Shown here piece by piece: positions 27-40,908 of a stretch of 64,000 nucleotides of DNA (its first letter is position 1; every line of letters begins with the position of its first letter). The translations under genes were made by a program, and so were the position numbers. Source of the DNA: Sedimenticola selenatireducens. GTDB taxonomy: Bacteria; Pseudomonadota; Gammaproteobacteria; Chromatiales; Chromatiaceae. The DNA is taken from assembly GCF_007625115.1 (NCBI RefSeq), contig NZ_VMNH01000011.1, positions 1-64,000 of the forward strand. Direction: 5' to 3'. The notes under the pieces were generated by a model. The model made no database searches and was not told the DNA's origin. It was given only the letters and a program-made list of their open reading frames with translations.

Positions 27-536
27 ATGGAGATCAATGCATTACCCAAATACGACATGAGCGACAACCCGACCAGCTGTTGCCCGCGTTTTCATCCTGA
101 GGGTTGGGATAATCAGGCGCTACACTTCAAAGACAAACTGTTTGTACGCGCAACCACTAACAGCCTCTTCCACATGCCCATCAACATGGGTTCTGTTTTT
201 GCAAAAACATTGGGCGCCATCGAAAAGGCCGAAGCCACCAGCGACACTGATTTCATAGTCCTGTCACATGACCCTTCGGCTTGGCGTGCCGAGCACCTGT
301 TTGCCGTCACAAAAGAGGTTCCAGAACAGGAGATGGTACGTCTATCCGGGGATTATTTAACGAAAGTATTTGAAGGGCCCTATAAAAACATGGGGCAGTG
401 GGACAAAGCGATGCGGGACTTTGTGAAACAACAAGGCAAGCAGACAAAAAAGAGTTACTTCTTCTATACCACCTGCCCGAAGTGTGCCAAGTTTTATGGG
501 AAGAACTATGTGGTGGCGGTTACACAAGTGCAGTAG
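27..536 (+). CDS. conserved protein, possible GyrI/SOUL-like fold
   Basis: A 169-residue cytosolic protein with no signal peptide or membrane segment. The ATG is preceded by AAGGAG at 7 bases, so the start is good. It has a Cys-Cys pair near residue 18 and a CPKC motif near residue 151, which could bind a metal or be redox active. The stretch FEGPYKNMGQWDKAMRDF followed by a C-terminal beta-rich segment resembles GyrI-like small-molecule-binding proteins, but that is a weak inference. Related proteins are sometimes labelled simply hydrolase, and no catalytic motif is visible to support that. The gene begins at the window edge, so an upstream operon partner cannot be judged. Confidence 0.75.
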   Translation: MEINALPKYDMSDNPTSCCPRFHPEGWDNQALHFKDKLFVRATTNSLFHMPINMGSVFAKTLGAIEKAEATSDTDFIVLSHDPSAWRAEHLFAVTKEVPEQEMVRLSGDYLTKVFEGPYKNMGQWDKAMRDFVKQQGKQTKKSYFFYTTCPKCAKFYGKNYVVAVTQVQ

Positions 537-7696: not shown

Positions 7697-9148
7697 TCAG
7701 TGAACAGTACAGACCATACAGGGATCGAATGACCTAACTATATGTTGCACCGCCACCGGTTCATTCTCACCTTCTCGTACAGGCGCACCGACCAGTGCCT
7801 GCTCAAGCGGACCGGTGACACCCGCTTGATCACGGGGTGAGAAGTTCCAGGTGGTGGGCGCGACGATCTGGTAGTTGAGAATACGGCCGTTCTTGATCCG
7901 CACCCAGTGGCCGAGACTGCCACGCGCGGCTTCTGTCAGACCGAATCCTTCCGACTCTCGAGTGACACCGCTGTCGACACAGAAGGGTTCTTTCGGCTTT
8001 AGCTGTCGACACCACTGCTCCATCTCAATCAGTACACGGGGTATTTCCAGCAATCTGGCGATGACGCGGTTGCGCACATTGCTGCCGCTGCTTGCTACCA
8101 GATCATTGATCAGCGGTTGCCCATCAATCAGTTGCCGTGCCAGTGCGCCCACTTCCACCACTTGCCCATCCAGACGAGGGGCTTTGCACCAGGTGTATCC
8201 GGAATCCATATCGGCATTGGGTAGTGTTACACCGTGATAGGGATGTGTTGGATCAGCCTGTCCTTCCATCCAGCTATGGCTGATATCTTCTGTGATCTTA
8301 TTCGGATTCAATTCGGTTAACTGACCTTCATACCAGACACCTGATTTGAAAGTGCGCTCCCCATCCAGCGGATAGACACCGTAGCTCATGAACCGACCCG
8401 TTGTCTGGCCCAGCGTTTCCAGCCGCAGGTCCTGCGAGAGCTGCAGAAGACGACGGAAGTCACTCTGACCGGGGTCGCCTGCATCCCGCCAGTTATCGAG
8501 CTGTTGTTGATTGGTAATCTCCAGTATAGCTTCGAGTTCGGTTCCAAACAGTCGCGCTTCAAGAAAGCGTCTGAAACCAGAAATGATAGACAACAGTCGC
8601 ACCTTTTCCGTGGCTTCGATACTTCGGGCACTGCCACCCGGCTGTATCCCCAAGGTGTGCGGCCACTTACCGGCCATGATCCCCATCAGGTGCATGAACT
8701 CAGCCCGGGCCTGCATGACATCAGCCGCGGCCCTGCCCTTCACCGCCTTGAAGCGTTTTTCGACTGCTTCAAACCAGGGCTCTTTGGTATAGATTGCCCG
8801 AGCAAAATCGGGCATGAAGAAGAGATAAAAATGGGTAAAGTGATCTGCCAGGTTTTCACAGGCGTGAATCAGATTGAGTGACAGTTCACCATTCATTGGG
8901 CGTTCAACACCCTGGGCATTGGCCAGTGCATCTGCCGCTGCAATAGATTGGGAAACAGAACAGATACCACAGATACGGGGGGTGTAGATGAGGGCATCGC
9001 GCGGATCCTTACCGTGCAGGATCTGCTCAAACCCCCGATACATCGGTGACACCACCCAAGCCTCACTTACCTTACCGTCGGCAATCTCCAGCTGTACCTC
9101 GAGATCGCCCTCGACTCGATTGAATGGACCGACGATGGTTCTGCTCAT
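7697..9148 (-). CDS. hupV: regulatory (H2-sensing) [NiFe] hydrogenase large subunit
   Basis: The 483-residue large subunit of an H2-sensing [NiFe] hydrogenase (HupV/HoxC type, group 2b). The Ni-Fe site cysteines are in RICGICSVSQS near residue 60 and in DPCMVCTVH at the extreme C terminus. The protein ends exactly at that histidine, so no C-terminal peptide needs proteolytic removal. This is a hallmark of regulatory hydrogenases, as is SVSQ in place of the usual His-containing end of the first motif. It would pair with HupU in the cytosol and report H2 to the HoxJ kinase. Its ATG overlaps the hupU stop (TAATG). It is the last gene of the hup/hyp operon. Confidence 0.93.
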   Translation of the reverse strand: MSRTIVGPFNRVEGDLEVQLEIADGKVSEAWVVSPMYRGFEQILHGKDPRDALIYTPRICGICSVSQSIAAADALANAQGVERPMNGELSLNLIHACENLADHFTHFYLFFMPDFARAIYTKEPWFEAVEKRFKAVKGRAAADVMQARAEFMHLMGIMAGKWPHTLGIQPGGSARSIEATEKVRLLSIISGFRRFLEARLFGTELEAILEITNQQQLDNWRDAGDPGQSDFRRLLQLSQDLRLETLGQTTGRFMSYGVYPLDGERTFKSGVWYEGQLTELNPNKITEDISHSWMEGQADPTHPYHGVTLPNADMDSGYTWCKAPRLDGQVVEVGALARQLIDGQPLINDLVASSGSNVRNRVIARLLEIPRVLIEMEQWCRQLKPKEPFCVDSGVTRESEGFGLTEAARGSLGHWVRIKNGRILNYQIVAPTTWNFSPRDQAGVTGPLEQALVGAPVREGENEPVAVQHIVRSFDPCMVCTVH

Positions 9149-10158
9149 TATGTTCCCTTTTTCTTGGTCTGTGGTGGAACAACAATATGATCTGCTACGG
9201 CATTCTGGCGCAGTCTTTTAGGTGTTGCCGCCTTGGAGAGCGAGGCCAAGGCGACAAACCATGCCTTCGGCATATCCGATGGCAGGCCAATCGGTATGCC
9301 AGCAATCTTCGGAGTCTCCTGGAAACGATGCCCCGGCTCTTGGAAGCCCGGTGCCGTACAATTGATGCAGGCGTAACCACCACGCAGACAGGAGCCCTCG
9401 CCATTCCAGAGGCGGGTATTACAATCGGCATGAGCCTGTGTACCCAAACAGCCCATGTGTTCCATCATGCAACCGAGTTGTGAATGCTCTTCGGCGCTCG
9501 CCTTGAATTCGTAATATTCATTACGGGGGCAACCGTGATGAACCAGATGATCGGCATACCCCCGAGGGCGCTGCCATTCATCCAGGTCCTCCTCAGTGAA
9601 ATCATCCAGTGCCAACTGCATCAGGGTTTCAGTAATCCAGTTGGGATGGGTGGGACAACCCGCCACATTGATCACCGGCATATTACTGAGTGATCGATAA
9701 GACTCACCGAGCGCTCCACCCCGTTCTGTTTCTGCATACTGAAGACCACAGGCATCGGTTGGGTTGCCGCCCCCCGCAGTGATACCACCAAAGCTGGCGC
9801 CAGTGCCAATGCCTAGTGTGTATTTCGCCACGACTGAAAGATCACGCACCCAATCAAGCATTGAGCGACCCGTTCCCGCCAGAATGTGAAAACGGCCTGT
9901 CTTATTTGGCCCGCGAAGAATTGCGCCTTCGATACAGAGGGCGTCCAATCTTATTTCACCAGCCACAATCTGTGTTAGCAGGGCAATCATCTCTGATCCA
10001 GTCTCTTCACTCAACATGGGATGCCACAACAGATTAATCCCTGCGCCTTCCAGTGTATGAAGCAGAGTGGGCGATTCAGCATTCAGCAGCGACAGGCTGC
10101 AGCCGCCGCAGCCGCCCGATTGCAGCCAGAGTACGTTGAAGCCTGTCTGTTGTGTCAT
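9148..10158 (-). CDS. hupU: regulatory [NiFe] hydrogenase small subunit
   Basis: The small, Fe-S-carrying subunit of the H2-sensor hydrogenase (HupU/HoxB type). It starts cleanly with MTQQTGFNVLWLQSGGCGGC and has no twin-arginine signal peptide, so it is cytosolic, unlike uptake hydrogenase small subunits. Cysteines for three Fe-S clusters are visible: SGGCGGC, NVAGCPTHP, HHGCPRNEYYEF, and the C-terminal CLGTQAHADCN/GSCLRGGYACINC region. I use the ATG at 10158, since upstream in-frame ATGs at 10203 and 10188 lack ribosome binding sites and family homology. It is translationally coupled to hupV. Confidence 0.92.
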   Translation of the reverse strand: MTQQTGFNVLWLQSGGCGGCSLSLLNAESPTLLHTLEGAGINLLWHPMLSEETGSEMIALLTQIVAGEIRLDALCIEGAILRGPNKTGRFHILAGTGRSMLDWVRDLSVVAKYTLGIGTGASFGGITAGGGNPTDACGLQYAETERGGALGESYRSLSNMPVINVAGCPTHPNWITETLMQLALDDFTEEDLDEWQRPRGYADHLVHHGCPRNEYYEFKASAEEHSQLGCMMEHMGCLGTQAHADCNTRLWNGEGSCLRGGYACINCTAPGFQEPGHRFQETPKIAGIPIGLPSDMPKAWFVALASLSKAATPKRLRQNAVADHIVVPPQTKKKGT

Positions 10159-29414: not shown

Positions 29415-30647
29415 TCAAAGTTTGATTCCGAGCATCAAATCCATCACATTGGTTCCGGTTGGGCCGGTATTGATCAGGTCGCCACTGGCTTCAAGAAAGG
29501 TACCACTATCCGCCTTCAGCAAACACACCTCATAATCCAAACCGGACGCTCGACTGCCTCGGCTGATCGTTGCACCATCCACCACGGCACCGGCATCCTC
29601 ACCAGGACCATCCCCACCATCCGTTCCCGCAGAAAGAAAGCAGACATGTCGATTGCCGGCAATCTGCCCTGCCACAGAGAGGGCCAGGTGCTGGTTTCGC
29701 CCCCCTCTCCCTGGCTGTTCTGGAAGCTTGATCGTCGGCTCACCACCCCAGATATATAATCCAGGCCAGGCATCGCGTAACTCATAGGCTAATCGTCGTC
29801 CAACAACCTCTACATCGCCGCCGATATGGGCATGGTATACCGAAACCACGTAGCCCAGCTCACGCGCCTTTTCTGCCGCCGCTTCACGGGCCATTCGCAG
29901 TGAAGCGACAATATCCACCTGGATATGCGTTAGCCCCTCCACGGCAGGGTCAGTCGGTTCGGGTAGACATTCTAGCAGCCAATCTGGCAACTGGAGATCC
30001 TGCAGATCATCAGCCGCTGCCTGCTGTGGAACAAGCAAGCCCGACCCGATCACAGCAGGATCATCACCCGGCACATCAGAGATCAACAACACACGTGCAG
30101 GACGCCCCCCAAGAGTATTAATCAACCCACCTCCCTTGATGCATGAGATTGATTTACGCACCCGGTTCATTGCATCGATGGGCAGACCACTTCCGAGCAA
30201 CCAGCTATTGATTCGTTGTAAATGGGCCAGGTCAACACACTCCCGTAAGCGCTCGACCAGACTGGAAGCCCCACCTGAAATCAAAAACACCATTTGGCGA
30301 TCTTGCGGTAACGCCTCTATATAGCGAACCAATTCTTCGCCCGCCACCAGACTAGACGCATTAGGTACCGGATGACCACCCTGCAACCCTTTCAGCCCCT
30401 TTGACGCTAACCAATCAAGGTCCAGATGCCCTGGCTTGGAGATCACCAGCCCATCCACTACCCGGTGACCCAACACATCAACGGCCCCTTGGGTCATTGC
30501 CTGAGCGGCCTTTCCAATCGCCACCAGTGAAATGTTTCCTTGTAAGGTTTTGAGTGTCTCCTTGACGCATTCCCGGCCATCAACACGCGCCAGGCCCGCT
30601 TGAAAGACAGTCAGCAGATCGATTCGGGCACGTGCGATATCGAGCAT
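29415..30647 (-). CDS. glycerate 2-kinase family protein
   Basis: A 410-residue type-2 glycerate kinase (MOFRL family, GckA/TtuD). Motifs include LVAIGKAAQAMTQGA (about 40), SKPGHLD, GGHPVPN, FLISGGASSLVE (about 127), and the C-terminal GTDGGDGPGEDAGAVVDG (about 345). It should phosphorylate D-glycerate to 2-phosphoglycerate, feeding central metabolism from glyoxylate, serine or tartrate routes. No tartronate semialdehyde reductase is adjacent, so the source pathway is not defined. Confidence 0.87.
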   Translation of the reverse strand: MLDIARARIDLLTVFQAGLARVDGRECVKETLKTLQGNISLVAIGKAAQAMTQGAVDVLGHRVVDGLVISKPGHLDLDWLASKGLKGLQGGHPVPNASSLVAGEELVRYIEALPQDRQMVFLISGGASSLVERLRECVDLAHLQRINSWLLGSGLPIDAMNRVRKSISCIKGGGLINTLGGRPARVLLISDVPGDDPAVIGSGLLVPQQAAADDLQDLQLPDWLLECLPEPTDPAVEGLTHIQVDIVASLRMAREAAAEKARELGYVVSVYHAHIGGDVEVVGRRLAYELRDAWPGLYIWGGEPTIKLPEQPGRGGRNQHLALSVAGQIAGNRHVCFLSAGTDGGDGPGEDAGAVVDGATISRGSRASGLDYEVCLLKADSGTFLEASGDLINTGPTGTNVMDLMLGIKL

Positions 30648-30779
30648 GGAGCAACTCCTGTTTTGAACGAGCTATGAACTGACTCTATGCCAGCATAAAA
30701 AAAGGTCCATTCTATCCCCCAGACCCAGATATGATAAGCTGAAGCTCACGCCGGCTTGGGAACCGCATGGGGAATACAC

Positions 30780-31751
30780 TTGGAAAGTATACAGATACGC
30801 CGTTATTTCAGCCGCAACATCCTCTTTCGCATGCTAGTCCTCGGTGCCATCGTTGCCGGGCTACTCTACTGGAAGCTGGATTTTATTAATGATATCTACT
30901 TCAGAGATCAGTTAACGCCGACGGGTCTCATCATCAACGGCGCCATTGTCGGGCTATTCGTACTGGGCCTACTCAGGATCATCGGCATCCTGCTCAGCTA
31001 TAGCCTGGAAGAGCGTGCACTGATTCAGTTCATGCGTAATCTTCGGGACAAGGTCGACCCCATCTACGAGATCTCTGAAAATCGCATGATCGCCAGGCGC
31101 TATCGCAACCTGGAGGTCCTGAGCAATGCCAACACCCCGATTAATCACAATGCCCTGGCGACAACACTGGTTGCCTCAGAGAGCACGCGCAACAGTCTAC
31201 CTAAATTCATTAACAATACACTGATCTTAACCGGCGTATTTGGCACCATTGTTTCGCTCTCTATTGCCTTGATCGGTGCATCAGACCTGCTAGCGTCGGC
31301 CGTCAACGTAAACGGAATGGGCCTGATCATTCATGGTATGTCCACGGCACTTTCAACCACGATAACCGCGATAGTTTGCTACATCTACTTCGGTTACTTC
31401 TATATGAAGTTGACTGATGTACAAACCAACCTGATCAGTGGCATTGAGCAAGTCACCGCTACCCACCTGATGCCCCGATTCCAAATTCAGACCGAGAGCG
31501 TCCTGTTTGAATTCAGCGGTCTGATCCGCTCACTGCAGAGCCTTATCAGCAAGATGGAAGCCTCGCAGTCCTCATTTCAGAACCTGGCCAATGAGATGCA
31601 GAATTCTCAGAGCAACATCGAATCACTGGAGCAATGCATCAGTAATGCCGTCAATAAGGTCTACGACGACCGTATTCAGCCGGTCACACAGGAGATGGAA
31701 GATATCAAGAAACTTCTCCGGGATGGCTTCAGGTTGCACGAGGATCTATGA
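30780..31751 (+). CDS. MotA/TolQ/ExbB-like proton-channel protein
   Basis: About 323 residues; I favour the TTG at 30780 with GGGGAA five bases upstream, although an in-frame TTG at 30756 exists. There are four membrane helices: two near the N terminus, then a pair with the channel signatures TLILTGVFGTIVSLSIALIG and GMSTALSTTITAIVCYIYF (about residues 147-210). A cytoplasmic C-terminal coiled coil of about 95 residues follows. It should form an oligomeric ion channel around the next gene's product, to which it is coupled by a 4-base overlap. It is neither standard MotA (no torque-helix region seen) nor TolQ (no tolR, tolA or tolB nearby). Confidence 0.75.
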   Translation: MESIQIRRYFSRNILFRMLVLGAIVAGLLYWKLDFINDIYFRDQLTPTGLIINGAIVGLFVLGLLRIIGILLSYSLEERALIQFMRNLRDKVDPIYEISENRMIARRYRNLEVLSNANTPINHNALATTLVASESTRNSLPKFINNTLILTGVFGTIVSLSIALIGASDLLASAVNVNGMGLIIHGMSTALSTTITAIVCYIYFGYFYMKLTDVQTNLISGIEQVTATHLMPRFQIQTESVLFEFSGLIRSLQSLISKMEASQSSFQNLANEMQNSQSNIESLEQCISNAVNKVYDDRIQPVTQEMEDIKKLLRDGFRLHEDL

Positions 31752-32818
31752 ACCCGGACAGCAGCTTCGTTGATCTGCGGTTGAACCGTCAGGATGGCCA
31801 GAACCAGGAGAGTTTCTGGCCGTCCTTTACCGACATAATGACCGTAATCGTGATGATCTTTGTTATCGCGATGGTTGTGCTGCTGTTACGAAATATTGAA
31901 CTGGTCAACCAGTTGCGTTCCACCATGGAGGCTGAACGCACAGCCATGGAACTGGCCAAGGTGACCGGTGAAGAGAAGGAGAGCCTGGCGCTGAAGCTGT
32001 TCACTGCAGAGAATGATAACTCCATGCTGCGCATGCAGTTGATGCAGATGGAGGAGCAGGGACTGAAACAGGCGGGCACGATCGATCTGCAACACCGAGA
32101 CATCGTAACCCTCCAGGCTGAAAAAGAGTCACTGCAACTGCTACGCGATCAGTTAAATGCAGAAAACTACACCCTGAATCAGCGACTGACTAAAAGCCAG
32201 GCGGCGCTTGCGCAGCAGCAGCAAATCTTGACTGAACTACAACAGACATTACGCTCAACAGAGAGTCAGCTCATACAGTTCCAGGCTGAAATAGCATCGA
32301 CACGAGCTGAACTTAAAAACCTTGAAACCGATCATGCCGCCACCCAAGAACAGCTTCGCTTACTACAACAGCGATACAACACACAGACAGGGGATCTGTT
32401 GACATCACGAGTCGCTGAAAGAGAAAGTGGCCGGCAACTAAGCAGCCTGAAGAGTGACTTTGATCGGCTGAAATTGAAATATGACAAACTGGTTAGACCG
32501 GCGCGTACACCTGCGGGCCGCTATCTGGTTGAGGTCCGCTATACCAAACCCGCCGATAGCGTCATTGTTGAGTATCAGACCCAGGATAAAGAGGGCTACA
32601 GCCCCATCTCCCAGGCAAAACTGGAAAGCTTGCTGACTGATCTTAAACAAAAACAGGCGAGCGGACTCTATATCAAGGTTATTTTCCCAGAGAATAGTGG
32701 ATTGACCTTCACAGAAGCCTGGAGTCTCACATCCCACCTGCACGGTCAGTATGACTACTATTTCCAGGAAGGGGGGAATGAACTGGTACCCGTGCTGCCG
32801 GAAGCCCGCGGCGAGTAG
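31748..32818 (+). CDS. MotB/ExbD-like coiled-coil partner of the channel
   Basis: A 356-residue single-pass protein. FWPSFTDIMTVIVMIFVIAM (about residues 22-41) is a MotB/ExbD-type helix with the proton-carrying Asp in SFTDIM. A long coiled coil rich in Gln, Leu and Glu (about 45-245) follows, then a compact C-terminal domain (about 255-350). That end lacks the OmpA peptidoglycan-binding motif. It is more like a TolR/ExbD periplasmic domain (LESLLTDLKQK..., YIKVIFPENSGLTF), but this is a tentative resemblance. Such a long stalk with no peptidoglycan anchor is unusual for stator units. Confidence 0.7.
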   Translation: MNPDSSFVDLRLNRQDGQNQESFWPSFTDIMTVIVMIFVIAMVVLLLRNIELVNQLRSTMEAERTAMELAKVTGEEKESLALKLFTAENDNSMLRMQLMQMEEQGLKQAGTIDLQHRDIVTLQAEKESLQLLRDQLNAENYTLNQRLTKSQAALAQQQQILTELQQTLRSTESQLIQFQAEIASTRAELKNLETDHAATQEQLRLLQQRYNTQTGDLLTSRVAERESGRQLSSLKSDFDRLKLKYDKLVRPARTPAGRYLVEVRYTKPADSVIVEYQTQDKEGYSPISQAKLESLLTDLKQKQASGLYIKVIFPENSGLTFTEAWSLTSHLHGQYDYYFQEGGNELVPVLPEARGE

Positions 32819-32958
32819 AAACGTCATTCTGAAGAAGTGCGATGCAGCACACGCCTCCGGCCGTCTATCGCCGTTACGCTTGCTATTAGGGGCAGACAAC
32901 CATTTTATTGTTATACTTCGGGCAAGTACTTTAAAAATAATTACAACTCGGTCTTACT

Positions 32959-33954
32959 ATGCCAACACCTGTCATCATCTGTGACGATTCAAGCTTTGCC
33001 CGAAAACAGGTTATGCGCGCCCTCCCAACCGGCTGGGATGTGGACATTACTTTCTGTGAAAACGGCCTCGAAGCGGTTGAAGCGATTGAGGCTGGCAAAG
33101 GCGACATCCTGTTACTTGATCTGACCATGCCGGTCATGGACGGCTTTGGTGTACTGGAACATATCCGAAAAAAAGATCTCCCCACTCTCCCGATCGTCAT
33201 ATCCGGTGATATTCAACCGGAAAGTTATAACCGAGTGATGTCCCTTGGTGCCGTTGCCTTCATTAAAAAGCCGGTCGATGCCGCTGAACTGACCAAGGTA
33301 TTGGATGACTTTGGCGTACTGGGTCTGCTCACTGAACAGATCGTTACAGATTCTGTGCAAGTCTCCTTCAACGAATGGTGTCAGGAGATCACCAATGTTG
33401 CCATGGGGCGAGCAGCTGATCTGCTGGTGCGGGTCATTAATGAGAAAATAGAGCTGAGCATTCCCCATGTCAGCCTGATGGAAAGAGGCGAATTGGTAAT
33501 GGCCCTCAATGCTGCAGCGCAGGGTGACAGTTTTTCCTGTATCAGCCAAGGCTTTATCGGTGGTGGCATTGCTGGAGAAAATCTGCTGATGTTCCACGAC
33601 ACCGATATCACTCATGTCGCTCGCATGCTGGATTTTGATGTTGCCCAATTGGAAGAGTCTAAAGAGATAGAGCTCTACATGGACATCGCTAACGTCCTGG
33701 TAGGCGCATTTCTTAAAGGCTTTGCAGAACAACTGGATGTCTGCTTCAGCCAAGGACATCCACGTATCACTATTCATACAGAAGACAGCGAGGGAATTCT
33801 GAATAAAAGCAATACCCACGATAAAATCTTGACCATTGAGGTCAACTACATGATTGGCGACAACCAGATAAGCTGCAATCAATTAGTACTCATCACACCT
33901 GAATCAATACCCGCAATGAAGATGCGGTCTGGTGAGGAGATTTTTGAACTATGA
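32959..33954 (+). CDS. response regulator with CheC-like phosphatase domain
   Basis: A 331-residue fusion. The receiver domain (1-120) has IICDDS, phospho-acceptor Asp in LLLDLTMPVMDG and the conserved Lys in FIKKPVDA. The C-terminal part (about 135-325) is CheC/CheX-like, with two active-site-type helices, QEITNVAMGRAADLL and MDIANVLVGAFLKGF, each carrying an acidic residue and Asn three apart. It could dephosphorylate itself or another receiver. It lies 140 bases after the channel pair and overlaps the next gene by 4 bases. Confidence 0.82.
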   Translation: MPTPVIICDDSSFARKQVMRALPTGWDVDITFCENGLEAVEAIEAGKGDILLLDLTMPVMDGFGVLEHIRKKDLPTLPIVISGDIQPESYNRVMSLGAVAFIKKPVDAAELTKVLDDFGVLGLLTEQIVTDSVQVSFNEWCQEITNVAMGRAADLLVRVINEKIELSIPHVSLMERGELVMALNAAAQGDSFSCISQGFIGGGIAGENLLMFHDTDITHVARMLDFDVAQLEESKEIELYMDIANVLVGAFLKGFAEQLDVCFSQGHPRITIHTEDSEGILNKSNTHDKILTIEVNYMIGDNQISCNQLVLITPESIPAMKMRSGEEIFEL

Positions 33955-34907
33955 ATCAACTCAGCGAAGATATTTCAGAAATGCATTTACTGCTGGGTAT
34001 TATTCACAATGTCGACGTGGGGCTTGTGGTACTGGATCGTGGACACAGAATCAAGATCTGGAACCACTTTATGTGGAATCACAGTGGCATTAATCCCTCT
34101 ACCCTAAATGATAAGAATCTATTTGAAGAGTTTCCTCTACTGCCGAAACAGTGGTTGCAAAAGAAATTGGATACCGTTTTTCTATTAAACAATCGCGCCT
34201 TCTCATCCTGGCAGCAGCGGCCGTATATTTTTAAGTTCAACAGCTATAATCCCATTACCGGCCGCTCTGAAACTATGTTTCAGAATATGACCATATTTCC
34301 GCTGACGGGCGTCTCCGGTGAGGTGGAACATGTCTGCCTGATGCTTTATGACGCTACTGATGCCGCCCTGGATGAACAGGCACTTCAATCAGCCAATCTG
34401 GAACTGGATAGACTGGGGCGCATAGACGGATTGACCGGGCTACTTAATCGGCGTGCCTGGGAAAATGCTATGCTATCTGAATTCAAGCGTTTCCCCCGTA
34501 GCGGCCAGAAATCAAGTCTGGTGATGTTTGACATTGACCACTTCAAGAAGGTCAATGATACTTATGGACACCAGGCCGGCGACGAAGTAATTCGCATCGT
34601 CTCGGCACTCCTGCAAGAGACTAAACGAGAAGTGGATATTGCAGGCCGCTACGGTGGTGAAGAGTTTTGTGTCGTTCTGCTTGGTTCTGACAAGCAAGGT
34701 GGAATGCTCTTTGCTGAAAGACTTCGAGAGGCGGTGGAGTCTACAGAAGTCATATACGAAGACCTGCTGATAAAATTCACCATCAGCCTTGGTATTTCTG
34801 AGATTGACGATTCATTGAAGAGCCATACCGAATGGCTGGAGCAGTCTGACAAGGCGCTCTATCAATCAAAAGAAGGGGGCAGAAACCGCTCCACCCTGTT
34901 TAAATAA
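33951..34907 (+). CDS. PAS-GGDEF diguanylate cyclase
   Basis: A 318-residue soluble enzyme. An N-terminal PAS-like domain (about 10-135) precedes a GGDEF domain (about 160-318) with the catalytic GGEEF and metal Asp in FDIDHFKKVND. The inhibitory site RxxD is present as REVD just upstream, so c-di-GMP feedback is expected. It overlaps the REC-CheC gene by 4 bases, suggesting that the receiver output and c-di-GMP synthesis are linked. It is convergent with the TPR protein, with the 3' ends overlapping by 8 bases. Confidence 0.9.
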   Translation: MNQLSEDISEMHLLLGIIHNVDVGLVVLDRGHRIKIWNHFMWNHSGINPSTLNDKNLFEEFPLLPKQWLQKKLDTVFLLNNRAFSSWQQRPYIFKFNSYNPITGRSETMFQNMTIFPLTGVSGEVEHVCLMLYDATDAALDEQALQSANLELDRLGRIDGLTGLLNRRAWENAMLSEFKRFPRSGQKSSLVMFDIDHFKKVNDTYGHQAGDEVIRIVSALLQETKREVDIAGRYGGEEFCVVLLGSDKQGGMLFAERLREAVESTEVIYEDLLIKFTISLGISEIDDSLKSHTEWLEQSDKALYQSKEGGRNRSTLFK

Positions 34908-35796
34908 TCCGCTCACTGATAATTTTCCACCCGGTCCCTTCACGGATGAACACTAACTCCTTAGTTACGACATCCTGATAGTTACTGGCACTGTAGTGTT
35001 GTTTGAAGCGTACGGATATCTGTGCATTAGAGAGGGAGAATACAGGGGTATCGAATTGAATCTTGATCCACTCCGGGCGTTTCAGGGATCGCTCCCGCTG
35101 AACTCGCCATTGTGTGAGAGCGCTCTTCTTGGGTACAAACCGTACAGAATAAAAACCCAAATAGCGCTTCACATCCTGTGCTTCCCAAGCGGTACGCCAT
35201 TGGCCCAGTGTATCCAGCACCTCATTCATAAGGGACTCGGTCAGCTCATCCGCATCAGTTTTAGCCGTCATTGGTTTTACCGGAACAATCGGCTTCGGCT
35301 CAACCACTTCACAGAACGCGGGAATCTTAATACTTGAACCGGCAGGAATCCGACCATAGGTACGACAAGCCATTTCAGCATGGACATCCCCTAGATTGCG
35401 GACGGCTTGATGGTACTCAGGCTTGATTTTAATGGCTTTTTCAAAGGCCTCTTTGGCCTTATCCAACTCACCCCGTTCGGCATGGATCACGCCAATGTTA
35501 TTATGAATGGCCGCATCATTTGGATAGTTTTCAGACAACAGTTTAAACAGCGTCATCCCCTCATCAAGCCGCCCCATTCTAACCAGCACGGCCCCTTTAA
35601 GTAGCGTGAGCGAGGCCAGATCCGATCCATCCTGATTGTTCAAATCATCAATGCGCTTCAGCGCATCACTGTAAGCACCCTGATCAATTAATTTACCCAC
35701 TTGCTCATCGGCCTGTACCACACCGATCATGATTACGAGTGAAACAGCCAGCAACAGGGCCTTCCTCGACCATTGGAGTCCATCAAAAAACATCAT
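34900..35796 (-). CDS. TPR protein with Cds6-like C-terminal domain
   Basis: About 298 residues from the ATG at 35796, which follows GGGCAGGAAA; the frame extends further upstream without a ribosome binding site. The order is a signal peptide or anchor (RKALLLAVSLVIMIGVVQA), three or four TPR units (about 40-145), a Pro-rich linker, then an NTF2/SnoaL-like domain (about 195-298). That last domain clearly resembles the repeats in the divergent L,D-transpeptidase (YLGFYS..., SNYQDVVTKELVF). It is probably a periplasmic scaffold in cell-wall remodelling, inferred from the shared domain. Confidence 0.75.
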   Translation of the reverse strand: MMFFDGLQWSRKALLLAVSLVIMIGVVQADEQVGKLIDQGAYSDALKRIDDLNNQDGSDLASLTLLKGAVLVRMGRLDEGMTLFKLLSENYPNDAAIHNNIGVIHAERGELDKAKEAFEKAIKIKPEYHQAVRNLGDVHAEMACRTYGRIPAGSSIKIPAFCEVVEPKPIVPVKPMTAKTDADELTESLMNEVLDTLGQWRTAWEAQDVKRYLGFYSVRFVPKKSALTQWRVQRERSLKRPEWIKIQFDTPVFSLSNAQISVRFKQHYSASNYQDVVTKELVFIREGTGWKIISERII

Positions 35797-35931
35797 TTTC
35801 CTGCCATGCCCATAGAAATCACTGTAAAAGGCGATTATACCTAATATCGACACATTTGCCGCAACCGTCAGCTAATTGTAGAATCGCGAACCGACGCCAA
35901 ATATTCGAGCCCAGATAACCCAGAACCGGCC

Positions 35932-37236
35932 ATGATTGAGTGCACAACAACAACCGCCCTGCAAAACACTCCCTGTGCAATGCCGCTACTCAGTGGACTG
36001 CTCGCACTGGCACTTTCTGCCGGATCAGGACTAGCACATGCGGTGCAGGAGTTACCCAATCATATATTTTCAAGAAATGGCGGCAATAGCACAACGGTAT
36101 TGGTGGACAAGCGCACGCGCTCAGCCTATCTGGTTGACCTGGAACAGGACGAGCCACGGTTAACCCGTAGTTTCGATGATCTGCTATTTGGAGAGATCGA
36201 CGGCGAAAAGACACGTGAAGGGGATAAGCGCACACCCGAAGGCGTCTATCGCATCACCCACTACATCCCAAAAGATAAACTGGCGCCCATCTATGGTGAT
36301 GGTGCTTTCCCCATCGACTATCCAAATACGCTGGATCAGATCGAAGGTCGCAACGGCAGCGGTATCTGGCTTCACGGGCGGGATGAGAGCGACCCCAAAA
36401 AACAGGTCACACGTGGTTGTGTCGCATTCAATAACAACCAAATTGACGAACTAAGGTCACTGTTGCAGAAGGACACACCGGTCATCATTACCCGGGAAAC
36501 AGAGTTTATCCCGGCCACGGAGTATCAACAGCAAAGAGAAGCGCTGTTTGCCCTATTTGATGGATTTATAGATGCCTGGGAAACGGGCGATATCGATAAG
36601 CTAAGCAACTATCTTCATCCCGATTTCCATAGCCCTGGCGGAATCGATCGGGAGATGTGGGTTGCACGTAAGGCCCAACTAAGCCAACTTTATCCAAAGC
36701 GCCGCATCGAGACCGATGACATCTACGCCTTCAAAGAAGATGGCGAGCAGGTGGTATTTGACTTTACCCAGTTCTATTGTGCCGACAACATCAGCACTCG
36801 AGGAAAGAAAAAGCTCTTCTTCAAACGCATTGGTGGGCAGCTTAAACTGATTACTGAATCCTATGCAGGCCTCTCAACAGCCAGCTATACCGACCAGAAG
36901 ATCGATCACTTCATCAATGACTGGCTGAATGCTTGGCGAAGCAAGGATCTAACCCAGTATCTCGGCTTCTACGGCGAGCAGTTCAAGGATGGCAGCGGTA
37001 AAAACCTCGCTCAGTGGCGAGACTATAAACAAGCCATCTTCCATGAACGCTCGGATCAGCAGATCAAGATCGCAGATATAAAGATCAAAGAACTGCGCGG
37101 CAATCGCTATCAGATCAAGTTTCGACAGGATTATCGTAGCGCTGATTATCAGGACACCGGGATTAAGACACTGATCCTTGAAGGCTGCCCTGGTGAATTT
37201 CAGATCGTCGCTGAAAAATGGCGCAAACTAAGGTAG
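35932..37236 (+). CDS. L,D-transpeptidase with two Cds6-like domains
   Basis: 434 residues: a signal peptide (LLSGLLALALSAGSGLAHA), a YkuD catalytic domain (about 60-180) and two NTF2-like domains (about 195-310 and 320-434). The active site reads IWLHGRD...TRGCVAF with the catalytic Cys and His. It would make 3-3 peptidoglycan cross-links or attach proteins to peptidoglycan in the periplasm. The tandem accessory domains match the family sometimes called Cds6, implicated in copper or cell-wall stress in other bacteria. An internal ATG at 35980 could also start it. It is divergent from the TPR gene with the same domain. Confidence 0.87.
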   Translation: MIECTTTTALQNTPCAMPLLSGLLALALSAGSGLAHAVQELPNHIFSRNGGNSTTVLVDKRTRSAYLVDLEQDEPRLTRSFDDLLFGEIDGEKTREGDKRTPEGVYRITHYIPKDKLAPIYGDGAFPIDYPNTLDQIEGRNGSGIWLHGRDESDPKKQVTRGCVAFNNNQIDELRSLLQKDTPVIITRETEFIPATEYQQQREALFALFDGFIDAWETGDIDKLSNYLHPDFHSPGGIDREMWVARKAQLSQLYPKRRIETDDIYAFKEDGEQVVFDFTQFYCADNISTRGKKKLFFKRIGGQLKLITESYAGLSTASYTDQKIDHFINDWLNAWRSKDLTQYLGFYGEQFKDGSGKNLAQWRDYKQAIFHERSDQQIKIADIKIKELRGNRYQIKFRQDYRSADYQDTGIKTLILEGCPGEFQIVAEKWRKLR

Positions 37237-37941: not shown

Positions 37942-38051
37942 AGTAACGATTGTATCTCAGGTTGCCCTGTAATCGATCATTTTATACAGCATCCCTGCCA
38001 TTTTCTGTCTACAATTGGGGTAATTATGTTTTTCATCTTGCGGAGCCCCTT

Positions 38052-38444
38052 ATGTACTTTGGAAATAAATATGAGACAGCTCATCCGGGAGAGAGTGTCG
38101 GTGATGAGCGCAGGGCCGTTTTACGACGACACCTGATCTACTATTTGCGCGTCTGGGACACCGCAACCGATAAACAGATAGGCCATGTTGTTGATATCAA
38201 CATAGACGGGCTGATGTTGATCAGCGAAAAACCCATTGAAACCGGCAAAGAATTTGAGTTGGAGATACGTAGCCATGACATGGAAGGTGCACCCAACATC
38301 ATCCGCTTCAGGGCCGTCAGTCGCTGGAGCAACAATGACGTCAATAACGCCTTTTATGACACCGGTTTCCAGCTAATTGATCCAACCGAAGAGATACTGG
38401 ACCCTATCCGTGACATGATTCAGCAGTATGGGTTTGGTGATTGA
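38052..38444 (+). CDS. PilZ-domain protein (c-di-GMP receptor candidate)
   Basis: 130 residues from the ATG at 38052 (GGAG at 7 bases); the longer frame from 37950 is not needed. PilZ motifs are RRHLIYYLRVWD (arginine cluster) and VVDINIDGLML, a variant of the usual D/NxSxxG with Asn in the Ser position. Binding of c-di-GMP is therefore likely but less certain. It stands alone on its strand between tsaB and yoaA. Confidence 0.8.
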   Translation: MYFGNKYETAHPGESVGDERRAVLRRHLIYYLRVWDTATDKQIGHVVDINIDGLMLISEKPIETGKEFELEIRSHDMEGAPNIIRFRAVSRWSNNDVNNAFYDTGFQLIDPTEEILDPIRDMIQQYGFGD

Positions 38445-38486: not shown

Positions 38487-40403
38487 CTAGTCTAATTGAA
38501 AAAAATCTGCCACGTCACGGATATCACGCGTGCGAGCCATGGGAGGCATGCTGTCAAGGAAGACCTGTCCGTAACCTTTTTTCAGTAGGCGGGGGTCACA
38601 AATCACCAACACCCCGCGATCTGTTTCATCCCGGATCAGACGCCCCGCCCCCTGCTTTAATGCGATAGCGGCCTGTGGTACCTGAAACTCCATGAAGGGA
38701 TTACCCCCCTGTTTCCTCAGGGCATCAATGCGTGCCTGCAGCACTGGATCACCGGGTGAGGCGAATGGCAGCTTATCAATAATCACACAAGAGAGCGCTT
38801 CGCCACGTACATCTACCCCTTCCCAGAAGCTGGCTGTACCCAATAAAACGGCATTCCCCAGATTTCTAAAACGGGCCAGTAACTCACCCTTTGGCATACT
38901 GCCTTGAACCAGCAAGGGGTACTCAACGCGGGATTCCAACGTCTCTGCGGCTTCACGCAAAGCACGATGACTGGTAAACAGGATAAATGCCCGCCCCTGA
39001 CTCGCTTCTATCACCGGCACCACCGTATCCAAAACAGCTTTATTGTAGTGCGACTCTCGGGGTTGCGGCATACCTTTAGGGACAAACCAGAGTGCCTGTC
39101 TCTGATAATCAAACGGACTGTCCCAACAGGCAGTGATGGCATTCTCCAAGCCAAGTTGGCGCTGAAAGTGGTCAAAATTACCCCCAACCGCCAAGGTCGC
39201 TGAGGTAAAGATCCAACTGCCTGGATGGGCACTCATCTGCTCTTTAAACAGACCCGATATATCTAGCGGGGTGCGGTTTAAGCGAAAACTTTGGCGGTAG
39301 GTTTCAAACCAGCGAATATAGCCACTCTGCGTCTCATCTTCGGCTATCAGCTGATTAAGGCATAATCGAATTGATTTGCAACGGGTGAGGCAACTATCCA
39401 ACCCCTTGCCTCGTCCTTCGATGACCGCCAACAGGTCTGTCATCTCTTGCAGACGCTCACTTACCAGGTTGAGACCTCTAATAATCTGCGGATCAGCAGA
39501 CAGCTCTTTCCAGGCACCACGACGAAGATCCAAGCCAAATAACAGCCGCAGATCTCTAACACCTTTGCTAAGCGCGGCGGATTGTTCCGGGATCTCTTTC
39601 AGATCACCCGCCTCGCGCTGATACTCCGTTTCGATATCACGACAGAGATCAAGTAACTGTCGCCCACTGATACCGGAACCAAAAAAGTTCCCGGCCACTT
39701 CGGGTAGTTGATGCGCCTCATCGATGATAAAACAGTCGGCACTCGGCAACAGTTCACCAAATCCCCCCTCTTTTAGCGCAAAATCAGCGCACAGTAGATG
39801 GTGGTTGATCACTACCAGATCGGCCTCCTGAGCCCGACGGCGCGCCTCAACCAGATGGCAGGTACTGTAGGCACTGCACTCCTGCCCCAAACAGTTTTCG
39901 GTTGTCGATGTCACCAGCGGCCAAATCCGAGCATCCTCAGGGATATCAGACAACTCAGCCACATCGCCACTTCGGGTACGGCCTGACCAGCGTTGAATCT
40001 GCATCAACTGATCGACCATTTCACGACTATTCAACCTACCCTCCAGCAGGGTCATCTCCATTCGATGAGTACAGAGGTAGTTGGCTCTCCCCTTCAGCAG
40101 GGCCACTTCGACAGGAATGGCCAGCGCCTGCTTAATTCGCGGCAAGTCACGATGAAACAGTTGATCCTGAAGGTTTTTAGTGCCGGTAGAGATGATGACT
40201 TTCTGGGAGGAGAGCAGTGCCGGTATCAAATAGGCGAAGGTTTTGCCGGTGCCAGTGCCCGCCTCACTGATCAGCACCTCGCCCTCACTCATGGCCTGCA
40301 GCACGGCTTCAGCCATAGCCTCCTGCTGCGGACGATAGGCGAAGCCATCCACGCAATTAGCCAATAGACCATCCGGCCCCAAAATATCTGCAATTTCAGA
40401 CAT
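38487..40403 (-). CDS. yoaA: YoaA/DinG-family Fe-S DNA helicase
   Basis: A 638-residue XPD-like superfamily 2 helicase. Walker A is SEAGTGTGKTFAY near residue 45, and the DEAH box is FIIDEAHQLPE. Four cysteines between motifs Ia and II (YLCTHRM, NCLGQECSAYSTC) would bind a 4Fe-4S cluster. The C-terminal motif VI is QGAGRLIRDETDRG. The start MSEIADILG at 40403 fits the family; the upstream 25 residues do not. In E. coli YoaA works with the HolC clamp-loader subunit in replication repair. It is 7 bases after the neighbouring hypothetical gene. Confidence 0.92.
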   Translation of the reverse strand: MSEIADILGPDGLLANCVDGFAYRPQQEAMAEAVLQAMSEGEVLISEAGTGTGKTFAYLIPALLSSQKVIISTGTKNLQDQLFHRDLPRIKQALAIPVEVALLKGRANYLCTHRMEMTLLEGRLNSREMVDQLMQIQRWSGRTRSGDVAELSDIPEDARIWPLVTSTTENCLGQECSAYSTCHLVEARRRAQEADLVVINHHLLCADFALKEGGFGELLPSADCFIIDEAHQLPEVAGNFFGSGISGRQLLDLCRDIETEYQREAGDLKEIPEQSAALSKGVRDLRLLFGLDLRRGAWKELSADPQIIRGLNLVSERLQEMTDLLAVIEGRGKGLDSCLTRCKSIRLCLNQLIAEDETQSGYIRWFETYRQSFRLNRTPLDISGLFKEQMSAHPGSWIFTSATLAVGGNFDHFQRQLGLENAITACWDSPFDYQRQALWFVPKGMPQPRESHYNKAVLDTVVPVIEASQGRAFILFTSHRALREAAETLESRVEYPLLVQGSMPKGELLARFRNLGNAVLLGTASFWEGVDVRGEALSCVIIDKLPFASPGDPVLQARIDALRKQGGNPFMEFQVPQAAIALKQGAGRLIRDETDRGVLVICDPRLLKKGYGQVFLDSMPPMARTRDIRDVADFFQLD

Positions 40404-40410
40404 GCACCCG

Positions 40411-40908
40411 TTATCCGGCCTGATTGTCCCAAATTTCAGGGGCCAATCCTTGATCTCTTGACCAGGCCAAACGACCAATAATCTTGAAGCGGGCTACTGA
40501 GAGTGCGCCACGTTTGGCGCGGTTGCTGCTTGAGTGCTCCATGAATTCGAGCAGTTCATTGCGGTCAGCCTCGTATATTTCATAGGGCTCGTACTCTTCA
40601 TCCATGAGCACCAGCACTACACAATCCCAGGACTGATCCGCCTTGACCTGACCAATTCGCTGCCCCGTCTTGCTCTCGTCAAAGATGGTGCGACTCTTGA
40701 TTTGAATACGCCGATTATCACGGGAAGGATCCACAGCATCATAACCACCCGTAGAGGCATCAACTGGTTTCAGACGTAACAAACGGATGGCATCATGCAG
40801 CGCGATCTCATTGCTAATGCCTGGCAGTGGTTTGCCCATAGTTCGCCGATACTCGGCAGCTAGCTGTCGAGCCTGACCAATCAACTTGTCGGCGGCATAT
40901 AGGCTCAT
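40411..40908 (-). CDS. conserved protein, possible PD-(D/E)XK-like fold
   Basis: 165 residues, cytosolic, no recognised family by name. It begins with helices, then has GYDAVDPSRDNRRIQIKSR (about residues 54-72), which resembles the D...(E/Q)xK core of restriction-like nucleases, followed by a beta strand WDCVVLVLMDEEY. Nuclease activity is only a possibility. It sits 7 bases upstream of yoaA on the same strand, so it is probably co-transcribed with the helicase. Confidence 0.7.
   Translation of the reverse strand: MSLYAADKLIGQARQLAAEYRRTMGKPLPGISNEIALHDAIRLLRLKPVDASTGGYDAVDPSRDNRRIQIKSRTIFDESKTGQRIGQVKADQSWDCVVLVLMDEEYEPYEIYEADRNELLEFMEHSSSNRAKRGALSVARFKIIGRLAWSRDQGLAPEIWDNQAG

Follow-up and report, generated by a model that had tools for sequence, protein, structure and literature searches.

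Two adjoining genes of Sedimenticola selenatireducens, here called A and B, raise the question of what kind of machine is formed when a MotA/TolQ-like channel subunit is paired with a MotB/ExbD-like partner that carries a long coiled coil, and whether the two signalling genes that follow them (C and D) belong to that machine. The genes lie in the first 64,000 nucleotides of contig NZ_VMNH01000011.1 (assembly GCF_007625115.1), a stretch referred to below as the window. An original prediction described the pair as an ion-powered, force-transmitting machine of unfamiliar type, perhaps controlled by the receiver protein encoded by C or by cyclic di-GMP (c-di-GMP). All four open reading frames are where it placed them, with a four-base overlap between A and B and with C and D on the same strand. 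Comparison with homologues supports an ion-powered, probably force-transmitting machine, set apart as a discrete family both by profile searches and by its distribution. The alignments document a conserved putative ion path, a consistent pairing of A with B and a predicted rod in B whose length changes heptad-wise. New here is the behaviour of the rod: its length varies almost only by whole heptads, or by heptads plus one four-residue stutter. Read from their sequences, A and B apparently constitute a distinct, uncharacterised motor family with an unusual rod, and their link to the signalling genes looks like adjacency in one genus.

The gene pair, its putative ion path and its family

The two genes and the residues on which the comparison turns are as follows.

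30780..31751 (+): gene A, MotA/TolQ/ExbB-type channel subunit, 323 amino acids, TTG start
31245..31247 (+): Thr156 of A, in the G-x-x-G-T motif of the third transmembrane segment; invariant in 60 of 60 proteins, aligned by hhalign with the TolQ/ExbB GTV motif
31356..31361 (+): Thr193-Thr194 of A, in the fourth transmembrane segment; invariant in 60 of 60, aligned by hhalign with TolQ/ExbB EALIATA
31725..31736 (+): GFRL at the C-terminus of A, end of the cytoplasmic tail; Gly, Phe and Arg in 60 of 60, Leu in 59 of 60
31748..32818 (+): gene B, MotB/ExbD-type axle subunit, 356 amino acids
31832..31834 (+): channel aspartate Asp29 of B, in 'FWPSFTDIMT'; Asp in 59 of 60, Gly in locus L023

The alignment set comprised 20 A and 18 B homologues at first and 60 A and 61 B homologues later, and the conservation counts refer to the 60 A proteins and to the 60 B proteins that show the Asp29 motif. 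The start codon of B and the stop codon of A share the four bases ATGA; a longer open reading frame, beginning at 30756, is possible for A. Hydropathy places four transmembrane segments in A, at about residues 13-33, 50-73, 147-169 and 185-208, and hydropathy together with charge predicts a cytoplasmic loop of approximately 70 residues and a helical cytoplasmic tail of approximately 115. B has a single transmembrane segment, which carries Asp29. The TTG start of A stands at the aligned position in Sedimenticola and in most relatives compared (ATG is used only in L025, L027 and L028, and L022 is truncated), which may keep expression low. Scanning 30600-33100 for promoters and terminators found no excess of sites over shuffled sequence, and a known RNA element was ruled out, with no Rfam match at the gathering threshold between 28000 and 38500.

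The pairing of the two genes is close to constant. Among 61 loci compared, A is present in 60 and is matched by B in all 60, with locus L029 lying at a contig end; in the 59 loci where both genes could be placed, the spacing from A to B ranges from -86 to +37 bases and is exactly -4 in 34. Of 33 loci added later, two have A and no B.

The match of A to PF01618 is weak and below the cut-off (18.3 bits against 22.9), yet hhalign places it on TolQ/ExbB over 172 columns (probability 53%, E value 1.4e-4), an alignment that keeps GTV and EALIATA in register, whilst the best of 122 decoy windows reached 0.0038. Alignment with three MotA paralogues alone was not significant (hhalign E 0.032). On this profile evidence A is read as a true but very divergent member of the MotA/TolQ/ExbB superfamily. 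Six further proteins of the same genome score above the PF01618 cut-off, so that A-B is an additional, divergent pair; the genome's own matches to PF13677 are all on other contigs.

For B, no OmpA, MotB_plug or ExbD match was found in Pfam at E <= 1. The ExbD/TolR model PF02472 has no match in the B of the window, and two distant relatives match it weakly from their transmembrane end, below the cut-off. All NCBIfam and PADLOC matches of B are weak: ZorB and PRK09040 at the transmembrane helix, PRK09039 at the helix and coil, and generic coiled-coil families. The best Zorya profile matches were 2e-5 for B, confined to the region of the transmembrane helix, and 2.3e-4 for A, over the fourth transmembrane segment and the tail. 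Searches of the PDB by sequence, judged in part from the best 60 of 332 matches, returned only coiled-coil or chance matches, bar one weak match between the transmembrane region of B and a MotB-related chain. The earlier description of A as MotA/TolQ-like and of B as MotB/ExbD-like thus holds, together with the channel aspartate, the long coiled coil and the lack of an OmpA match.

Profile comparison fits the pair to neither a standard stator nor the Tol family, and each known system shares some of its features. The core of A aligns with TolQ/ExbB as described, and B, like TolR/ExbD, has one Asp-bearing transmembrane helix; A differs from the TolQ topology by a predicted extra N-terminal transmembrane segment and a long cytoplasmic tail, B has a rod of roughly 150-550 residues, and no tol-pal or tonB gene is found among the neighbours scanned. 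ExbD and TolR are not known to have such a rod. MotAB/PomAB is likewise a two-gene unit with an aspartate in the B helix and four transmembrane segments predicted in A; A-B differs in having no MotB_plug or OmpA match and in the number of carriers without FliG (see below). The ZorAB system has a helical cytoplasmic A tail and, according to PMC11890865, an Asp and Ser/Thr ring, in addition to the weak profile matches noted above; it differs from A-B in that no OmpA-type peptidoglycan-binding domain was found in B and no Zorya operon among the neighbours scanned. Motor-coupled vWA proteins, new examples of which have been proposed, resemble A-B as read here in that the axle itself would carry force to the envelope (PMC12204202); B has no vWA match, possesses a coiled-coil rod and ends in a different domain. 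By these comparisons A-B is classed outside the standard stator, Tol, Ton and Zorya families, as a discrete family of its own. A literature search brought up no publication recognised as describing it, which does not prove its absence from print. A phylogeny of MotAB groups the non-flagellar relatives as structurally diverse 'generic ion transporters' (PMC12505986), and the 205-genome data set of that study may contain A-B members under another label.

The survey of distribution covered one phylum. The A profile matched 55 of the 369 class genomes sampled (limit 1e-8) and 28 of the 398 genomes in the phylum sample, namely the genome under study and 27 from two further families (f207 and f227, labelled only 'same phylum'). 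All matches in the class sample reached E <= 1e-60 save three fragments, and no match in the phylum sample fell between 1e-75 and the 1e-5 limit; this gap in E values indicates that the A-B family is discrete. Second matches in three class-sample genomes are fragments, and carriers appear to possess a single copy. Of 55 close relatives, the genome itself included, 24 yielded a B match, the weakest of these matches (G029) probably being a chance coiled coil. Five of six named matching loci are from Sedimenticola, at 83-93% identity. Carriage by viruses or plasmids was rejected, there being no A relative in the viral contigs or plasmids searched. Fusions that would add approximately 500 residues to the N-terminus of A (L082 and L088) were also set aside: no Pfam family was matched by the added parts at E <= 0.01, and these resemble open frames that arise by chance in GC-rich antisense DNA.

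The coiled-coil rod and the terminal domain

The periplasmic part of B is divided between a long helix and a small domain.

31895..32485 (+): coiled-coil rod of B, residues about 50-246, from the AlphaFold2 helix and heptad periodicity; approximately 29 nm if straight
32489..32815 (+): C-terminal domain of B, approximately 100 amino acids, from the model and a 56-sequence alignment; no named family

AlphaFold2 (seven sequences) predicts a continuous helix over residues 27-246 of B, with block means of the predicted local distance difference test (pLDDT) of 71-97 for residues 31-240 and above 90 for about 121-210. The two heptad positions taken by hydrophobic residues are the same at either end of the rod, a third position is also raised near the membrane, and leucine accounts for 42% and 37% of residues at the two shared positions in members of the main length class.

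Rod length was measured from the channel motif FWPSFT to LVRPARS, which opens the terminal domain. In the 57 of 61 B proteins that could be measured, this distance runs from 176 to 575 residues and takes 20 distinct values, and its remainder on division by seven is 1 in 51 proteins and 5 in six, with no other class represented. None of 200,000 random draws fitted as well, and moduli 3-6 and 8-11 gave nothing comparable. Two of the four proteins skipped could be measured with a looser motif (176 and 180) and both fit, raising the count to 59 of 59; the remaining two are contig-edge fragments. The offset of four between the two classes corresponds to a stutter, which coiled coils tolerate. A tree of 56 A proteins requires no fewer than 29 changes of rod length, and of 19 independent pairs 17 differ by exact multiples of seven and the other two (-11 and -235) by heptads and a stutter.

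The rule was then written down as a prediction before 33 further loci were taken up. With one motif slightly loosened, 24 of 25 measured rods obeyed it, and with both loosened 28 of 29. Four lengths were new (184, 222, 299 and 386), of which three obey, and the distinct lengths now number 24 overall. Controls did not behave in this manner: the A tail, measured in 50 of 60 proteins, took six lengths that fall into four residue classes, and flagellar MotB linkers, measured at 12 of 31 loci, took seven lengths, likewise spread over four classes; in this small sample, MotB linkers are thus not quantised by heptads, unlike the B rod. Several rods of 386 to 575 residues, motif to motif (L087, L123, L028, L231 and L235), exceed what an ordinary periplasm could hold upright and still keep the heptad phase or depart from it by one stutter. 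Change of length almost only by heptads, with or without a stutter, means that the channel helix, the coiled coil and the terminal domain keep one fixed register.

The terminal domain carries the near-invariant motifs P-A-R, L-Y-x5-P-x-x-S-G-L, A-W and D-Y-Y in the 56-sequence alignment. Its model, of low confidence, has the order strand-helix-strand-helix-strand, and an additional early strand was read by eye; with that strand, the order recalls the strands and helices of ExbD/TolR, with which it may be shared. Support from hhalign is weak: ExbD ranks first of 123 (E 0.0073 against 0.010 for the best decoy) at a probability of only 5%, over an alignment of 64 columns where the ten best decoys reach 28 at most. 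Against Pfam the 56 domains gave no meaningful match (Pax2_C in 16 of 56, best E 0.01; ExbD in 1 of 56, 0.019), and a sequence search of the PDB gave no significant match. The resemblance to ExbD/TolR is treated here as a lead only.

A candidate shaft and its rivals

The reading favoured here, with somewhat more belief than doubt, is that A-B would be an ion-driven motor of the inner membrane whose rod serves as a torsion-true shaft to the outer periplasm. By homology, a pentamer of A would probably surround a dimer of B (5:2), and protons or sodium ions, moving between Asp29 in B and the ring of threonines in A, would drive relative rotation. In the B dimer, the channel helix would run on as an uninterrupted two-stranded coiled coil, mostly of about 22 to 30 nm, and the small conserved terminal domain would sit at the outer side of the periplasm, close to the outer membrane. 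The fixed register suggests a stiff shaft, by which torque or angular position could be carried from the channel to the outer domain, and the target of the motor may lie at the cell wall or the outer membrane. The pair would be self-contained, with the REC-CheC and GGDEF genes forming a separate module. Such a heptad rule would be expected were the angle from channel to outer domain important. The shorter rods would measure 22-25 nm if straight, and 48 of 57 would not exceed about 30 nm.

A bolder form of this proposal, put forward tentatively and doubted more than believed, is that A-B would be the proteobacterial counterpart of GldLM: a self-contained ion-driven rotary motor whose driveshaft, one torsion-true coiled coil formed by the dimeric axle, would extend to the outer membrane, free in length but kept in angular phase because the phase couples the channel to the outer domain. 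In the type 9 secretion and gliding motor the inner subunit is similarly long enough to cross the periplasm, and GldM has been described as a proposed periplasm-spanning shaft in a 2022 review, which confines GldLM to the Bacteroidetes (PMC9389320). The Pfam and NCBIfam scans of A and B, in libraries that should include models of both families, listed no GldL or GldM at E <= 1.

Several observations weigh against the shaft. Nine of the 57 rods exceed about 30 nm, the longest reaching approximately 81 nm if straight, and an ordinary periplasm is too narrow for the longest to stand upright, so that a simple perpendicular shaft cannot hold for all members. One held-out rod (L243, 184 residues, genome G499) breaks the heptad rule; the A match of this genome contains a stop codon. 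Many genomes of the held-out set belong to a genus or family already represented in the first, making the test not fully independent, and both controls are small and neither is another long coiled-coil family. The model of A is poor (mean pLDDT 52.6), and that of the terminal domain is of the low confidence noted above. In locus L023 the channel aspartate of B (8507-9589) is replaced by glycine beside an apparently intact A, possibly a non-conducting form or a sequence error. In genus g374 of family f207, B has no terminal domain at two loci (L241 and L246) and A has no adjoining B at two others (L242 and L245); judged from these sequences, the axle seems to be in the process of loss in this sub-lineage. 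Finally, chemoreceptor hairpins (PMC5907407) and BvgS-type linkers (PMC5829827) also vary in length by heptads, and the heptad rule alone is therefore no proof of torque transmission.

In an anchored stator, a possibility regarded here as unlikely, if a serious one, the terminal domain of B would be fixed to peptidoglycan or the outer membrane and the pentamer of A would turn, acting on a cytoplasmic partner through its tail and GFRL end, in the arrangement of MotAB or ZorAB with a longer tether. ZorAB works in this way, its ZorB being bound to peptidoglycan and its ZorA having a long tail (PMC11890865), and the Gly, Phe and Arg at the end of A, invariant in 60 of 60, are as expected of a fixed cytoplasmic contact. 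However, a pure tether would have no need of a constant heptad phase along 20 to 80 heptads, B gave no match to an OmpA-type domain, and no widely shared gene that could supply the partner adjoins A-B. The flagellar rotor protein FliG, sought in 80 of the 82 A-B carriers (two of low completeness were left out), is present in 47 and absent from 33; of the 67 carriers at least 90% complete and at most 5% contaminated, 39 have it. On this count an accessory stator of purely flagellar function was rejected.

The chemoreceptor and BvgS precedent also lends support to an envelope sensor, in which the rod would relay twist or pull from the outer periplasm and the channel would open, the ions themselves being the signal, so that A-B would be an input device instead of a motor. 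Phase-true coiled coils are found in signal transmitters such as the chemoreceptors and the BvgS linkers cited above, and receiver and cyclase genes lie just downstream in Sedimenticola. These signalling genes, however, do not accompany A-B in the other genera examined, and the full set of ion-path residues of the force-generating relatives is retained; a sensor is accordingly considered quite improbable.

The shaft reading gives a widespread and unassigned gene pair a mechanism that can be tested. A 2025 study holds that diverse envelope systems driven by 5:2 motors are still to be discovered (PMC12204202), and the 2022 review speculates that the size of such motors is limited by the torque that the anchoring coiled coil withstands, for which single-molecule work on such dimers would be a test (PMC9389320). 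The A-B family offers material for that test, namely natural axles of 24 lengths, nearly all in one register, and the two-gene unit is small enough for transfer to a laboratory strain.

Neighbouring genes and the signalling pair

The genes around A-B that enter the comparison are the following.

29415-30647 (-): glycerate-kinase-type gene (MOFRL family), the commonest neighbour, at 14 of 61 loci
32959..33954 (+): gene C, receiver domain and CheX/CheC-type domain by Pfam; a neighbour outside the motor
33951..34907 (+): gene D, PAS-GGDEF diguanylate cyclase; PAS weak, GGEEF and an upstream RxxD read from the translation; partner of C

C and D overlap by four bases, and 140 bases separate B from C in the window (133-151 in all six Sedimenticola loci measured), a gap by which the four genes are better read as two units of two genes each. 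The order A-B-C-D extends beyond this strain, being kept in eight of nine Sedimenticola genomes, the ninth (G005) having a contig that begins inside B; the earlier suggestion of surveying whether the four genes stay together finds them doing so within Sedimenticola only. Thirty-two relatives were searched for C homologues at E <= 1e-25. All nine Sedimenticola genomes have one; the 11 genomes representing 11 other genera of the family have none, and of 12 genomes from other families three do (G034, G040 and G043). At the loci of these three (L197, L198 and L199) a D homologue adjoins C and A-B is absent; in L199 the C homologue is split across two frames. The occurrence of the C-D pair without A-B in three genomes marks it as an independent module that lies downstream of A-B in one genus. 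The REC-CheC and PAS-GGDEF proteins are apparently a signalling module of their own, a receiver-phosphatase-type protein coupled to a cyclase. A four-gene machine under the control of the receiver or of c-di-GMP, as originally envisaged from the shared order in Sedimenticola, was rejected as largely refuted by these occurrences and by the B-C gap, and is given almost no credence here. Neighbouring c-di-GMP genes should accordingly not be read as a control of A-B.

Further afield, no third gene is widely shared, so that A-B looks like, and appears to be, a self-contained two-gene unit. The divergent glycerate-kinase-type gene is followed in frequency by genes found at seven loci, and its recurrence suggests vertical inheritance of A-B at a stable site in the family. 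A conserved upstream partner was rejected, the same-strand upstream genes tested being unrelated (ThiC, ferrochelatase, NnrS, M3 peptidase, RmuC and one unknown; chaperonin and dicarboxylate symporter). Other genes tested that adjoin A-B encode a TMP-TENI/NUDIX protein, GlnE, PmbA/TldD, an aminotransferase, a glycosyltransferase, an acyl-CoA dehydrogenase, an HDOD protein and Slp.

The lack of flagellar, tol-pal and exb genes nearby, remarked on earlier, was borne out by a scan of twelve other nearby genes of the window, as was that of a Zorya helicase: the sole helicase nearby, encoded on the opposite strand at 38487-40478, belongs to the DinG type and has no match among the Zorya models. No Zorya operon or defence effector was found among the neighbours scanned, which were not every neighbour.

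Three loci (L020, L022 and L024) have tandem genes of one cluster downstream of B, and in L024 the gene at 7768-8316 encodes an outer membrane lipoprotein of the Slp type, which might point, though this is unproven, to a partner in the outer membrane. The cyclase gene is followed directly in the window, at 34900-37236, by genes for a TPR protein and a YkuD-type L,D-transpeptidase, each of which has a Cds6_C NTF2-like domain at its C-terminus. A small protein encoded at 37950-38444 (+), with no Pfam match at E 1e-5, resembles by eye the PilZ type of c-di-GMP receptor.

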